Part shown: in pieces, positions 38,532-44,711 of the stretch
Numbering within the stretch: the stretch's first letter is position 1
Layout of the letters: every line of letters starts with the position of its first letter
Source of the DNA: Candidatus Poribacteria bacterium
GTDB lineage: Bacteria > Poribacteria > WGA-4E > WGA-3G
DNA: 64,000 bases
Assembly: GCA_958295945.1 (NCBI GenBank)
Contig: OY282386.1
Span: forward strand, 3,714,204 to 3,778,203
Direction: 5' to 3'
Program-made: the position numbers and the translations under genes
Notes under the pieces: generated by a model
Told to the model about the DNA's origin: nothing
The model's input: the letters and a program-made list of their open reading frames with translations, nothing else
The model's database searches: none

Positions 38532-39278
38532 GTGCGGCTTGAAAAATATATATCCGATTCAGGTGTCGCATCCCGCCGTGCAGTTAAGCGAGCTATTCGT
38601 GATGGACATGTTACTGTTAACGGCACAATGATAACTATTCCTGGACATCCGATTGATGCAGAAAGTGATGATATTGAATATCGTGGAGATAAGGTTGAAC
38701 CGATAACAGAGTACATCTATCTTATGTTGAATAAACCACCAGGTTATTTGACAACTCGAAATGATGAGCGTGGCAGACCTACCGTTATGGATTTGCTAAC
38801 CGACCTACCTAAGTCGATATACCCCGTTGGACGCTTAGATTTAGATACGGAAGGATTACTGTTATTTACAAATGATGGAGATTTTGCTTATCGGATGATG
38901 CATCCCAGTCATGAGATTGACAAGACTTATCTTGTATGGGTAAGTGGTGTTCTGAGTAATCGTGCCCTTGAACGTCTACGGAACGGCGTTGCTATCACCG
39001 GCGGTAAAACTGCACCTGCCAAGATTGAAGAACTGAAGGTGACTGGAACACCTAAGTTAACAGAAAATAGAAAAACAGGCAACACTGCAGGAGTTGCAAA
39101 ATATAGAGTAGTGATTCACGAGGGTAAGAAAAGGCAAGTTCGTTTAATGTTTAAAGCGGTAGGACATAAGGTAATCCGTTTGAAACGGGTACGGGTAGGT
39201 ACAATAAGGTTAGGTAATCTTCCACAAGGGAAGTATCGTTTTCTTACCCCTGCGGAAGTTACCTTGTTACGATCTTAA
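38532..39278 (+). CDS. Pseudouridine synthase, RsuA/RluB family
   Basis: 248 residues starting at GTG 38532, supported by AGGGGA. An N-terminal S4 RNA-binding domain (MRLEKYISDSGVASRRAVKR) is followed by the catalytic domain: YLMLNKPPGYLTT, PVGRLDLDTEGLLLFTNDG with the catalytic Asp, and EGKKRQVRLMFKAVGH. It isomerises a uridine in rRNA; the RluB type acts on 23S. It closes the gdh-pdxJ-HAD group. Confidence 0.93.
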   Translation: MRLEKYISDSGVASRRAVKRAIRDGHVTVNGTMITIPGHPIDAESDDIEYRGDKVEPITEYIYLMLNKPPGYLTTRNDERGRPTVMDLLTDLPKSIYPVGRLDLDTEGLLLFTNDGDFAYRMMHPSHEIDKTYLVWVSGVLSNRALERLRNGVAITGGKTAPAKIEELKVTGTPKLTENRKTGNTAGVAKYRVVIHEGKKRQVRLMFKAVGHKVIRLKRVRVGTIRLGNLPQGKYRFLTPAEVTLLRS

Positions 39279-39289
39279 TTTCTGAAATC

Positions 39290-40336
39290 TCACTGATCCT
39301 TTGGAGTTGCCTCTAAGGAATCCTGAGCGCGTTTCAACATCATCTCAGCTTGCCGTAGCAGATTTTCATTCTTGCCGTGATTGAGCAACTTCTCAAACAC
39401 AACAATTGCCTTATCAAACTGCTTGAGGATATGATAGGTGACTCCCAAATAGTATTGAGCAGATTCAATCTCATTACTTTTTGGATAATTCTCAATGACT
39501 TTTTGGAAGTGCATTACAGTTTTTTCTGCTAAATCTTCGTCACTCGGTTTTCTCTGTAGTTGCATCGCATAAGCAAGACCAATTTGTGTATGCAATTTAG
39601 ATACATTCCCTGATTCATTTTTCGTATCTTTTGCAAATACTTTTTCACTGAATGAGAGTGCTTTGTCAAATTGTTGAATCTTCAAATAGGCTAAAGCAAA
39701 TTGACTGTTTAGTTCGAGATCATCTGGGAGTTTTGCACTGATCGGCAAAGCTTTATCAATTTGTTGACGATCTATAAAAAGAATTGCAATTTCCCGATTA
39801 AGTTTGAGATCTTCAGGATTTTCCTTGTATTCCGCCAATTTTGCTTTGAATTCCACCTCTTTTTTCAGTGCCGTTTCCATTACTGGAGCGAATTTATCGG
39901 GAGGAAGATAACCACCTTGATTCGTAATTACCCCTCCATCTGGACTAATGAACAAAATTGCTGGGAAACCTCTTACACCGTACTTTTCTCGTGTTTCCTC
40001 GTTTATGGGACGTTCCTCAATCTCTGGATTGACTTTGATGTTGATGAATTTATCTGAAAGTGAGATGACTTTCGCATCGGTGAAGGTGTCGGCATCCAGC
40101 CGTTTACACCAACCTCACCAATCTGTATAGAAGTCCATCATAATCGGTTTACCAGTCTCGGTGGATTGTTTTATAGCTTCTTCTACTGTATCCACCCATT
40201 GGATTTGTGCTTCAGTGGTTTCTTCCGTGGTAGCATCTTGACTATCAGCAAAGACAGGGATTGAAACTGCCATCAGCAAGAGAACAGAGAGTGCAGCAAA
40301 GTAACTGAGATGTTTTGGGACAACAGAATTAAACAT
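39290..40336 (-). CDS. Predicted selenoprotein: secreted thioredoxin-like domain (UxxC) with TPR repeats
   Basis: One continuous 349-codon frame broken only by an in-frame TGA (40115-40117, codon 74). Signal peptide about 1-31 (FAALSVLLLMAVSIPVFADS). A thioredoxin-7/DUF255-like domain follows: the text reads MMDFYTDW-[UGA]-GWCKRLD, where the family has DWCGWCK, so UGA stands exactly at the first catalytic Cys. After it the frame keeps thioredoxin features (GVRGFPAILFISPDGG) and then about 160 residues of TPR-like helices, with no decay over 274 codons. A stem-loop right after the UGA fits the bacterial SECIS rules. Sec at the resolving/attacking Cys is known in bacterial thioredoxin-like selenoproteins. 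TGA is an ordinary stop elsewhere in the window. The alternative is a very recent nonsense mutation. No sel genes are in the window. Confidence 0.75.
40085..40110 (-). promoter_or_regulatory. Candidate bacterial SECIS element
   Basis: Starting 4 bases after the UGA, the messenger folds as GGUGU-AAA-CGGC-UGGAU-GCCG-ACACC: a 5-bp lower stem, a 3-base one-sided bulge, a 4-bp GC upper stem and a 5-base apical loop. The loop starts 17 bases after the UGA and has G as its second base. Known bacterial SECIS rules ask for an apical loop about 16-37 bases after the UGA with a G in its first two positions, so all are met. All nine pairs are Watson-Crick. Confidence 0.65.
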
Positions 40337-40569: not shown

Positions 40570-41958
40570 TTACTTGCCAACACAGAACTGTGAGAAGATA
40601 CGATCCAGTATATCTTCTGTGGTCGTTTTTCCTACGATGTCACCAAGTGCATCCAGACTTATCCGCAAATCAACAGATACAAGGTCTGGTGGCATCTCGT
40701 TTTCTAAGCTTGTGATGACATCATCAAGTGCTTCTTGAGAACGTCGTAGTGCGTCTTGATGACGCGTGTTAGTAATAATCGGCGATTCTCCGACGACAAA
40801 ATCTCCACCCAACAACACATCAAGGATAGTATTCTTCAACATGTCTATACCTATATCTTCAGTAATTGCAGTCTCAACGATACTGACATTTGGACAATGG
40901 TCTGATAAGTTTTGTGGATGTGTATATATGGGTAGATCCGTTTTATTTAGGATTAGGATTGCACGATTGCATTTTGCGATCTCCAATAATTCAATATCCG
41001 ACTCATCCAACGGTTGTGATGCATCAAACATTAAGAGTAGCAATTCTACTTTATCAAGAACATCTCTACTCCGTTGAACTCCTTGCTGTTCAACGATATT
41101 ATCGGTTTCTCTGATTCCTGCTGTATCAACGAGATTGATTGGAATTCCACCGATATTAATTGTCTCCTCAATTGTGTCTCTGGTTGTTCCTGGTATGTCT
41201 GTGACAATGGCACGTGCAGTGGTAAGAAGTGCATTGAACAGACTTGATTTTCCAACATTCGGTTTTCCTAATATGCCAACGTTGACACCTTCCTTGATAA
41301 TTCGTCCTTCTGATGCAGTTGCTATCAAATGCGTTATATCCGCTTGCACTTCGCGTGAGGTCTGAAGTTGTGTGTCTACTTTCATAAAATCAAGGTCTTC
41401 ATCAGGAAAGTCAATTGACGCTTCTATTTCTGCCAATAACTCTGCAAGTCGATCACTTAGTCGATTGACATTTTCAGATAGTTTCCCAGAAAGTGTATCA
41501 ACCGCTATTTTTCTGCTGAGTTCTGTTTTTGAACCGATGAGTTCTGCTACCGCCTCAGCCTGTGCAAGGTCTAGTCTCCCGTTGAGGAAAGCACGTTTTG
41601 TAAATTCACCCGGTTCTGCAACTCTTGCTCCAGCTTCTACTACCAATTCAAGCACAGACGTTAGTGGAATAGAACCACCGTGGCAGTTGAATTCCACAAT
41701 GTCTTCAGTTGTATATGTATTTGGTGTACGCATTACGCCAAGCAATACTTCGTCAATGATTTCGCCAGAAGCAGATGTATCAATGACATACCCGTGTGTT
41801 AGCGTGTGTGATGGTATTTCGTGGAGTAAAACAGCGCGGGAAGGACGAAACAGTTTGTTAGCAATTGGGATTGCATGCGAACCACTGACTCGTACTATCC
41901 CAATGCCGCCTTCCCCTTTAGGCGTGGCGATGGCAGCGATGGTATCGTCAAATTTCAT
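40570..41958 (-). CDS. mnmE: tRNA modification GTPase MnmE
   Basis: 462 residues from ATG 41958 (MKFDDTIAAIATPKGEGGIG), the family's standard start; the frame's earlier ATG adds an unrelated 11 residues. The N-terminal folate-binding domain, a helical domain, and an inserted G domain (GKPNVGKSSLFNALL, DIPGTTRDTI, DTAGIRET, NKTDLP) are present. The C-terminus FCVGK carries the essential Cys. With MnmG it makes the xm5 group of wobble U34. It ends the conserved yidC cluster. Confidence 0.94.
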   Translation of the reverse strand: MKFDDTIAAIATPKGEGGIGIVRVSGSHAIPIANKLFRPSRAVLLHEIPSHTLTHGYVIDTSASGEIIDEVLLGVMRTPNTYTTEDIVEFNCHGGSIPLTSVLELVVEAGARVAEPGEFTKRAFLNGRLDLAQAEAVAELIGSKTELSRKIAVDTLSGKLSENVNRLSDRLAELLAEIEASIDFPDEDLDFMKVDTQLQTSREVQADITHLIATASEGRIIKEGVNVGILGKPNVGKSSLFNALLTTARAIVTDIPGTTRDTIEETINIGGIPINLVDTAGIRETDNIVEQQGVQRSRDVLDKVELLLLMFDASQPLDESDIELLEIAKCNRAILILNKTDLPIYTHPQNLSDHCPNVSIVETAITEDIGIDMLKNTILDVLLGGDFVVGESPIITNTRHQDALRRSQEALDDVITSLENEMPPDLVSVDLRISLDALGDIVGKTTTEDILDRIFSQFCVGK

Positions 41959-42050
41959 AATGCAATCCCGACATATAGATGTTCTGGACAAGGGTGCAAG
42001 GGATCAGTGAAATAGGTTTTGTATTTGACAAGGTTACTGAATATATCTGT

Positions 42051-42677
42051 TCAATAGTCATCCTGCCTTGCAATAACAACCCTCCGCATATCACCTTCTC
42101 CTTGGCTAAAGGTAGAGACATCGTCATCAGATTGTAAGGCGAGATGAATGACGCGTCGATCCTTGGCGGACATTGGTGAAAGCACAACATCTTGTCGTGT
42201 CCGTTTGACTTTTGCAGCGACTTGATGTGCAAGGTCAACAAGAGATTGTTCTCTCCGTTCACGGTAACCTTCAGTATCAACAAACACCTTTTTCTTTGCG
42301 AGCGCATTTTTATTGATTATACAGTTGAGGATCCTTTCAATAGCGTCAAGTGTTTGTCCATGTTTCCCTATTAGAAGTGCTGGGGAGTCTGTTGACATGT
42401 CAAGGTGTAAACTACCATCAATATGCTCGGAATTAACCACACCATCAATTCCAATGTGCGTGAGTATTTCTTTCAAAACGGTTTCAGGTGCAGTCGTTAC
42501 ATCTTCTTTGAGAGTTGCACGGACTTTTGCGGGTTTTGCTCCAAAACTTAAAATACCTTTTGTTGGTTCATTAATTATGATGATGTTGACGTGTTCGCGA
42601 GTTGTATCAAGTTCAGTGAGTGCGAGATCAATAGCCTCTTCAACAGTTTCTGCTTCAGTTTCAATATAGTTTTGCAA
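42051..42677 (-). CDS. khpB: RNA-binding protein KhpB/Jag (Jag-N, KH, R3H)
   Basis: 208 residues. Jag-N domain at 1-55 (AETVEEAIDLALTELDTTRE, KGILSFGAKPAKVRA), KH-type domain with LLIGKHGQTLDAIERILNCI, and an R3H domain at the C-terminus (LSPMSAKDRRVIHLALQSDD). The family binds RNA and in firmicutes affects cell elongation and sRNA use. Its position between yidC and mnmE is the conserved bacterial order. GGAG precedes the ATG. Confidence 0.92.
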   Translation of the reverse strand: MQNYIETEAETVEEAIDLALTELDTTREHVNIIIINEPTKGILSFGAKPAKVRATLKEDVTTAPETVLKEILTHIGIDGVVNSEHIDGSLHLDMSTDSPALLIGKHGQTLDAIERILNCIINKNALAKKKVFVDTEGYRERREQSLVDLAHQVAAKVKRTRQDVVLSPMSAKDRRVIHLALQSDDDVSTFSQGEGDMRRVVIARQDDY

Positions 42678-42869: not shown

Positions 42870-44711
42870 TTAATCCTGTTTTCGTTTCGGTAGATTATCT
42901 TGTGTATCGGGTTCACCGTCATGGAAATATTTCGTTTGTATATATTGTTGTGCGACAGTAAAGACGTTATTACATAGCCAGTATAACACAAAACCGGAAG
43001 CCCAGTTGTAAAATAGGAATACAAATATTAGCGGCATAAACTGCATGATTTTTGCCTGTGTATTTGTCGTTGCTGGCGTGGCAGACATTCCCCCGACAAA
43101 TTTCTGTTGAAGCCATGTGGTTAATCCATTCAGGATTGGTAAGAATCGTATGGCATCTATCTGTGTGAAAATCAATGGTATGGTAAATGGAAGATCTATT
43201 AAGACATCGGGTGCAGATAGGTCATCAATCCAGAAGAAGAAAGGCGCGCCTCTCAATTCAACCGCGCTACCGAGTAGAGAAAAGAGAGCCCAAAAAATAG
43301 GTAATTGTGGTAACCATGGGATACACCCACTTAATGGATTCACACCATTTTCCTTGTAAATCCGCATTGTTGCTTTGTTTAGTCTTTGTGGGTCATCCCG
43401 ATATTTTTCCTTTAGTTCTACCAATTGTGGTTGAAGTTGCTGCATTTTTTTCATAGAAACATGCGCTTTACGTGTGAGTGGAAAAGAGAGGATTTTCACT
43501 AATGCTGTTAAGATAATGATAGATAACCCGTAGTTCTGAAAAACACTGTACAATTGCTTGACTAACCAGAGCATCGCCCATGCGACAGGACCGAAGAAAC
43601 CGAAATCAATGACTTTAGACAGACCAAGCTGGATTTCCGGTTCGTTTGGTGGGGTGATCTCTTTTAGCATTGCATCATCTTTGGGACCGACATATAGGCG
43701 AAATGTATGTGTTAGTATGTTATGATTTGACAGTTGAAAACTCGGGATTCTCAAGACAGCGGTTTCGGTAGACGCAGTAACAAGAACATTCTTTTCACCA
43801 TTGGCTTTTGGGTTATCAAGTTTATATGTTGCCTCAAGTTGCGGATCTGGAATCATAATTGCGCTAAAATAATTGCTATTAATGCCTGCCCAGAGAACTG
43901 TTGCATATACGAGTTCATTTTTCAGTTCGCGCTTAGGTTTTCCAGTACCGACATACGCCCTTGCGCCTTCAGCACCACGACGTCCAGGTTTTCCTGCCTT
44001 TTTTTCGTGTATAAGCAAGTCAGCATTGATGCCAGGTCCCCATCGTAATTCGTAACCATTTGCAGGTTCAATTCCACCGATATGCAATGGTGTAGAATCA
44101 TCTTTCAAGTTTTGAAACATCACGTCTAAATCTACTGTATAACTGTTGTTATAAAAAGTAAATCTTTTTGATATTTTCAATTGTTCTTGGACTGTAGTTG
44201 TGAATGTAAGAGTGTCTTCATTTATTGTTTCATTGAGTTCAATGCTTTTCTTGTCTGCTGTCCACTCAGTTCGTCGCAAATTCAAATCAAATTGTAGGTC
44301 TTTATTGCCCAACCGTAATTCGAGACAATTTAAAGCAGTCTCGGGAATAAGGTTCAAAGGAACATCAGTTGTGTCGGTTGATCTGTCCGGGAAGCGTAGA
44401 TTCCCACTTTCCTTCTTTTCCACCAAATCCCACCGGTTGGCAATCGCCAATTTCTCGTTAAATGTAATAGCATAAGTATTCGTTTTGACATTGACAATTG
44501 GATCATCAGGATTAACCTGAAAGGTGAGTGGTTGTCCAGATCCCTCTGAATTCACTTCATTGGGGTCAACTCCAGGGGTATCGTCTTGTAGTGTCTGTTC
44601 AGTTGGTGGTATTTCTTCTTGTTCTGGTGCGAAGCGATTGCCAAATATTATTGTCCATGCAATCATGACTACAAGCATTAGAACAACTGCGAGAATATAT
44701 CGTGATCCCAT
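42870..44711 (-). CDS. yidC: Membrane protein insertase YidC
   Basis: 613 residues, the long proteobacterial/diderm type. One N-terminal membrane helix (YILAVVLMLVVMIAWTIIFG), a large periplasmic P1 domain (about 60-370), and the conserved core of five helices from about 375 (SIIILTALVKILSFPLTRKA, INGVNPLSGC-like ENGVNPLSGCIPWLPQLPIF) are present. The presence of a P1 domain supports a Gram-negative envelope. It lies between yidD and khpB on the same strand, with a palindrome (GGTTAGGAAACC type) in the 192-base gap to khpB. Confidence 0.94.
   Translation of the reverse strand: MGSRYILAVVLMLVVMIAWTIIFGNRFAPEQEEIPPTEQTLQDDTPGVDPNEVNSEGSGQPLTFQVNPDDPIVNVKTNTYAITFNEKLAIANRWDLVEKKESGNLRFPDRSTDTTDVPLNLIPETALNCLELRLGNKDLQFDLNLRRTEWTADKKSIELNETINEDTLTFTTTVQEQLKISKRFTFYNNSYTVDLDVMFQNLKDDSTPLHIGGIEPANGYELRWGPGINADLLIHEKKAGKPGRRGAEGARAYVGTGKPKRELKNELVYATVLWAGINSNYFSAIMIPDPQLEATYKLDNPKANGEKNVLVTASTETAVLRIPSFQLSNHNILTHTFRLYVGPKDDAMLKEITPPNEPEIQLGLSKVIDFGFFGPVAWAMLWLVKQLYSVFQNYGLSIIILTALVKILSFPLTRKAHVSMKKMQQLQPQLVELKEKYRDDPQRLNKATMRIYKENGVNPLSGCIPWLPQLPIFWALFSLLGSAVELRGAPFFFWIDDLSAPDVLIDLPFTIPLIFTQIDAIRFLPILNGLTTWLQQKFVGGMSATPATTNTQAKIMQFMPLIFVFLFYNWASGFVLYWLCNNVFTVAQQYIQTKYFHDGEPDTQDNLPKRKQD

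Follow-up and report, generated by a model that had tools for sequence, protein, structure and literature searches.

A predicted exported thioredoxin-TPR selenoprotein conserved across an order of Candidatus Poribacteria

Do two neighboring open frames separated by a single TGA encode two proteins, or one protein that contains selenocysteine? The question was raised by an initial annotation of the stretch of DNA analyzed here (64,000 nt; the window), which belongs to a poribacterial genome of 5.34 Mb assembled as a single contig. On the minus strand, positions 40336 to 39290 form a single frame of 348 codons, and its sole interruption is the TGA at 40117 to 40115. Before the TGA there are 73 codons from the ATG (80 open codons), and after it there are 274. 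Thus, as the annotation had claimed, the two apparent genes are one frame broken by that TGA alone. Its further claims that the missing residue is the first Cys position of DW-C-GWCK, giving UxxC, and that the downstream frame has thioredoxin and TPR character were also upheld: the TGA coincides with the opening residue of the motif in DFYTDW-U-GWCK, and both domains are matched by Pfam models. The window has 31 TGAs flanked on both sides by at least 40 open codons, of which only this one combines a SECIS-like hairpin with a Cys-containing redox motif. The two frames almost certainly belong to a single gene, whose product is an exported redox protein predicted to use selenocysteine (Table 1).

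Table 1. Features of the predicted selenoprotein gene and its surroundings, in window positions. Names of neighboring genes are those that we presume from sequence knowledge.
Feature	Position	Strand	Basis or remark
Whole gene, predicted exported thioredoxin-TPR selenoprotein	39290..40336	-	348 residues; own stop TGA 39292-39290
Signal-peptide-like N-terminal segment, residues 1-30, ending VFA	40247..40336	-	read by eye; low-pLDDT tail, one helix in model
Thioredoxin-like domain, residues 44-158, closest to DsbD-gamma/DsbH	39863..40207	-	Pfam and structure matches
In-frame UGA for the predicted selenocysteine 74, which opens UxxC	40115..40117	-	frame and homologues
Cys 77, resolving residue of UxxC	40106..40108	-	invariant, 74/74
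Conserved SECIS core CGGC-UGGAU-GCCG, 4 bp, 5-nt loop 40098-40094	40090..40102	-	codon and pairing conservation
Longer hairpin of this genome, outer 5 bp not conserved in relatives	40085..40110	-	folding and alignment
Pro 125, placed like, and presumably acting as, the cis-proline of thioredoxin folds	39962..39964	-	invariant in 40-member alignment
Helical TPR domain, residues 159-343	39308..39862	-	TPR Pfam matches; structure match
mnmE, conserved upstream neighbor	40570..41991	-	recurs across loci
jag, upstream	42051-42677	-	same-strand neighbor group with mnmE
yidC, upstream	42870-44711	-	same-strand neighbor group with mnmE
Pseudouridine synthase (RluB-like), conserved convergent neighbor	38532..39278	+	recurs across loci

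The relatives found in a named collection belong to Candidatus Poribacteria. In the order, 72 of the 73 genomes have a homologue whose match contains a single TGA, and one further genome of the class, outside the order, also has a single-TGA homologue. After removal of one truncated record from 75, there were 74 distinct aligned poribacterial sequences with full context. In all 74, this codon is TGA and the third codon after it encodes Cys; none has Cys in place of the predicted selenocysteine. TGC or TGT in close relatives had been named as evidence that would count against selenocysteine; only TGA was found throughout the order. Sense codons occur at the position only in L101 (TGC), which is a different protein of 800 codons, and in an Aminicenantes homologue (TGT). 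Homologues from the Acidobacteriota/Aminicenantes group have Cys, and the in-frame UGA thus occupies a redox position at which other proteins use Cys. Some loci found by tblastn have D instead of K after UxxC. In a tree of the thioredoxin region, which has few columns and does not resolve the deep forks, the 73 selenocysteine rows of the order group together as a single clade (support, 99/95), and no reversion to Cys was found within it. One 95%-complete genome of the genus (G041) has selB and no clear orthologue of the gene (best E value, 3e-15), reflecting either loss or an assembly gap. Two homologues (L065 and L069) contain an in-frame TAG that we considered as a second recoding event and rejected, since it is their terminal stop.

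The first possible internal start lies 54 codons downstream of the UGA. Over codons +1 to +51, pN/pS was 0.03 to 0.29 in nine pairs of relatives. By this measure, purifying selection acts on the stretch from the UGA to the first possible internal start, and the part after the UGA is, judging from the sequences, translated as protein. These data bear on the possibility that the UGA is a real stop, created by a nonsense mutation or a sequencing error, and that the locus is a pseudogene or two genes, one for a 73-residue peptide and one for a TPR protein. The standard code does split the frame in this way, and annotation that follows it would lose the active site. Against this reading stand the recurrence of this TGA in 74 distinct sequences, drawn from many assemblies; selection that begins directly after the UGA and ahead of any start codon; and a structural model (described below) in which the two halves form, with high confidence, a single thioredoxin domain. 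Given the conserved TGA and the purifying selection, we rejected sequencing error, nonsense mutation, and the two-gene arrangement; a real stop at this codon is extremely improbable.

A hairpin of nine pairs with its loop 17 nt after the UGA had also been described. The hairpin exists in the window gene, but only part of it is conserved. It has five plus four pairs, a 3-nt AAA bulge, and the loop UGGAU, which begins 17 nt past the UGA and has G at position 2; its energy, −15.5 kcal/mol, was reached in 0.2% of 1,000 synonymous recodings. Among 67 distinct sequences, the inner CGGC-UGGAU-GCCG was paired in 97% of cells versus 62% for the outer five pairs. Therefore, we rejected the full nine-pair hairpin as the conserved element and retained the inner four pairs with their 5-nt loop. 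This core was matched in 0 of 500 shuffles. In seven sequences (six distinct), both sides of its second pair have changed, turning G-C into A-U; because all of these belong to one clade, they represent one event. Codon usage over the core is also constrained. The Leu codon is CTG in 74/74 sequences, versus 13% elsewhere in these genes, and the Ala codon is GCC or GCT in 73/74, with GCT exactly where CAG stands upstream. The codons for LDA are frozen as CTG-GAT/C-GCC/GCT, whereas Cys homologues with the same residues (L161 and L165) write CTT-GAT-GCA; conservation of the hairpin and its codons is confined to UGA forms.

Published rules for the bacterial SECIS require a loop of 3 to 9 nt, an upper stem of 4 to 16 bp, G in the first two loop positions, a distance of 16 to 37 nt from the UGA, and a minimum free energy (MFE) of at most −7.5 (PMC13188914). 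The window gene conforms to all of these; the predicted MFE fold does so in only 53 of the 74 sequences, versus 12% of codon-preserving recodings. In the deepest family member (L095), the core is degraded. When the genome was searched with a covariance model of this SECIS, the element turned up only once (best other match, E about 6).

We searched the genome for the selenocysteine machinery, whose absence from a complete genome had been given as a further ground for doubt. All four components that define a bacterial selenoprotein system are present in the single contig: selA (537 bits), selB (362 bits; cutoff, 242), selD (361 bits), and the tRNA-Sec gene selC (78 bits; gathering score, 47; anticodon TCA), which adjoins selB. 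The selD gene carries its own in-frame TGA, in the motif KCAGUASK, and so itself needs UGA to be read as selenocysteine; the SelD of this genome is thus also a predicted selenoprotein (L011:1483-2529, in G000:C1 near 1975000, with the TGA at L011:1531-1533). In the phylum, selB is above the cutoff in 76 of 85 genomes; the only assemblies of the order that lack it are six with a completeness of 73 to 83%. Poribacteria are largely sponge-associated. One paper retrieved for Poribacteria and selenocysteine reports that selA and selB are enriched in sponge symbionts.

A selenium-free reading of the UGA, in which a near-cognate tRNA or a reassigned code supplies Trp or Cys, would agree with the Cys found in homologues from other phyla. 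However, UGA is also the gene's own stop, and for this reason global reassignment was rejected. The complete selenocysteine system and the restriction of the conserved hairpin and its codons to UGA forms argue in the same direction, and without selenium a fixed UGA would offer no obvious advantage over UGC. We consider such read-through very unlikely, and selenocysteine insertion is the reading that we follow below.

The thioredoxin domain matches PF13098 (E = 7.8e-15; 55.5 bits against a cutoff of 27), PF13899 (E = 6e-13), and PF03190. A PF13098 domain and, within it, an invariant UxxC are features that the protein shares with PF13098 selenoproteins. In the C-terminal part, TPR_19 was matched in 37 of 40 family members; PF14561, the YbbN-type TPR, did not match the window protein and matched 12 of 40 relatives weakly, and other TPR models matched more. 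An AlphaFold2 model made with 40 family members has a pLDDT of 91. Its best full-length Foldseek match is E. coli YbbN/CnoX (PDB 3qou; E = 3e-7), with a whole-chain TM of only 0.25 to 0.30, and hence the domains are packed differently. The next match is DsbD-gamma (TM, 0.78 of the target). In VIA-align, the thioredoxin part aligned with the exported Bacteroides domain 3f9u (Z, 16.6; rmsd, 1.8; 124 aligned) and with DsbD-gamma 1uc7 (Z, 15.6; rmsd, 2.6; 118 aligned), and the TPR part aligned with YbgF 2xev (Z, 16.8; rmsd, 2.0; 122 aligned). 3qou is not among the best 50 VIA-align rows, which is no evidence against the likeness. The signal-peptide-like N terminus, judged by eye, suggests that the protein is exported.

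These comparisons leave two views of what the selenoprotein mainly does. Like YbbN/CnoX, it has an N-terminal thioredoxin fold followed by TPRs, and YbbN is the top Foldseek match; it might therefore be chiefly a holdase for oxidized clients (a chaperedoxin) rather than a disulfide reductase. However, both family models and structure place the thioredoxin domain nearest to DsbD-gamma/DsbH, and the invariant UxxC argues for redox chemistry. YbbN/CnoX has no selenocysteine; its motif in E. coli is SxxC, and it lacks insulin reductase activity (PMC8129009). Its reported partner is GroEL, whereas the poribacterial protein has the signal-peptide-like N terminus, which speaks against a GroEL/ES-linked holdase. 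A primarily holdase function thus seems unlikely. So does the broader idea of a family of exported selenium-based chaperedoxins fixed across the order, in which the TPRs would hold damaged envelope proteins, UxxC would repair oxidized thiols, and selenocysteine would never be lost to Cys; we regard it as a tentative proposal.

Very probably, the protein is an exported thiol-disulfide oxidoreductase with a Sec74-xx-Cys77 active site, a DsbD-gamma/DsbH-like domain, and TPRs, which receives selenocysteine through SelA, SelD, SelB, and the hairpin. SelA would make selenocysteinyl-tRNA(Sec), using selenophosphate supplied by SelD; SelB would bind the small hairpin that closely follows the UGA and deliver this tRNA, so that selenocysteine is inserted. 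After export, the reaction would begin with attack of the selenolate on a client disulfide (or an oxidized thiol), and Cys77 would resolve the intermediate. The enzyme would then be rereduced, most simply by the one DsbD-type (DsbD_TM) transporter encoded in the genome, which is of the Cys type with a WCAAC motif. The TPRs may hold the client or a partner.

The surroundings of the gene are also conserved. The upstream group yidC-jag-mnmE recurs in most loci of the family, as do the convergent RluB-like gene and, beyond it, HAD, pdxJ-like, and dehydrogenase genes; mnmE lies beside the gene across much of the order. The recurrence of these neighbors indicates that the gene has been vertically inherited at a fixed position rather than inserted as a mobile element. 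In several genomes of the genus there is a second copy, a paralogue that also contains UGA but is longer, at ∼420 to 440 codons (L086-L090 and L068); in G034 it is in tandem with the first. A divergent copy that lies away from mnmE (L116/L048, in G027:C50) has a second TGA that closes the frame 69 codons past the UGA; it is possibly a decaying copy or a thioredoxin without TPRs. In the phylum of the Aminicenantes match, the longer homologues sampled use Cys. The same phylum has short thioredoxin-like frames of ∼190 to 215 codons (L157-L160) in which TGA occupies the UxxC position and a similar hairpin, CUCGGC-UGGAA-GCCGAG, is present. L166 and L167 are further, more divergent UGA-containing cases.

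How new is such a protein? A thiol:disulfide interchange selenoprotein with PF13098 and UxxC has already been cataloged (PMC13188914 and PMC9312934). It shares with the poribacterial protein the Pfam family, UxxC, and the bacterial SECIS class; its description (representative, WP_011366075.1) includes no TPR and no mention of Poribacteria. DsbD-gamma and DsbH, the closest thioredoxin domains by sequence and structure, differ in having Cys instead of selenocysteine and no TPR, and DsbD-gamma is part of a membrane protein. No NCBIfam model reached its cutoff with the window protein. The best match was to the TsoB rhodanese/DsbD fusion-like selenoprotein (NF045694; E = 1.5e-21) over the DsbD-like thioredoxin part, with 76.1 bits against a cutoff of 805 and 125 of 572 positions matched, all C-terminal; the selenocysteine motif of TsoB is listed as UxxxxU. 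The Trx7/PDZ selenoprotein (NF041199) likewise contains selenocysteine and joins an interaction domain to a domain of the Thioredoxin_7 type. However, it has CxxU rather than UxxC and PDZ rather than TPR, and it scored 26.4 bits against a cutoff of 300. In the open-license literature, reviews from 2022 and 2026 that list several fusions include neither a thioredoxin-TPR selenoprotein nor Poribacteria, and we found no papers joining Poribacteria with a selenoprotein. The initial suggestion of novelty thus stands for the domain combination and not for selenocysteine in the PF13098 family; because the latter is already cataloged, what is new is the architecture and its distribution. The thioredoxin-TPR architecture and its order-wide fixation appear to be undescribed in that literature.

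In 2026, 119 prokaryotic selenoprotein families and subfamilies were listed, and the thioredoxin-TPR protein adds to these an apparently uncataloged domain architecture. It also reveals a whole uncultured order that keeps selenocysteine in one vertically inherited, position-conserved gene, with no replacement by Cys observed. With this order-wide retention, the question of why selenocysteine is kept becomes testable in Poribacteria.
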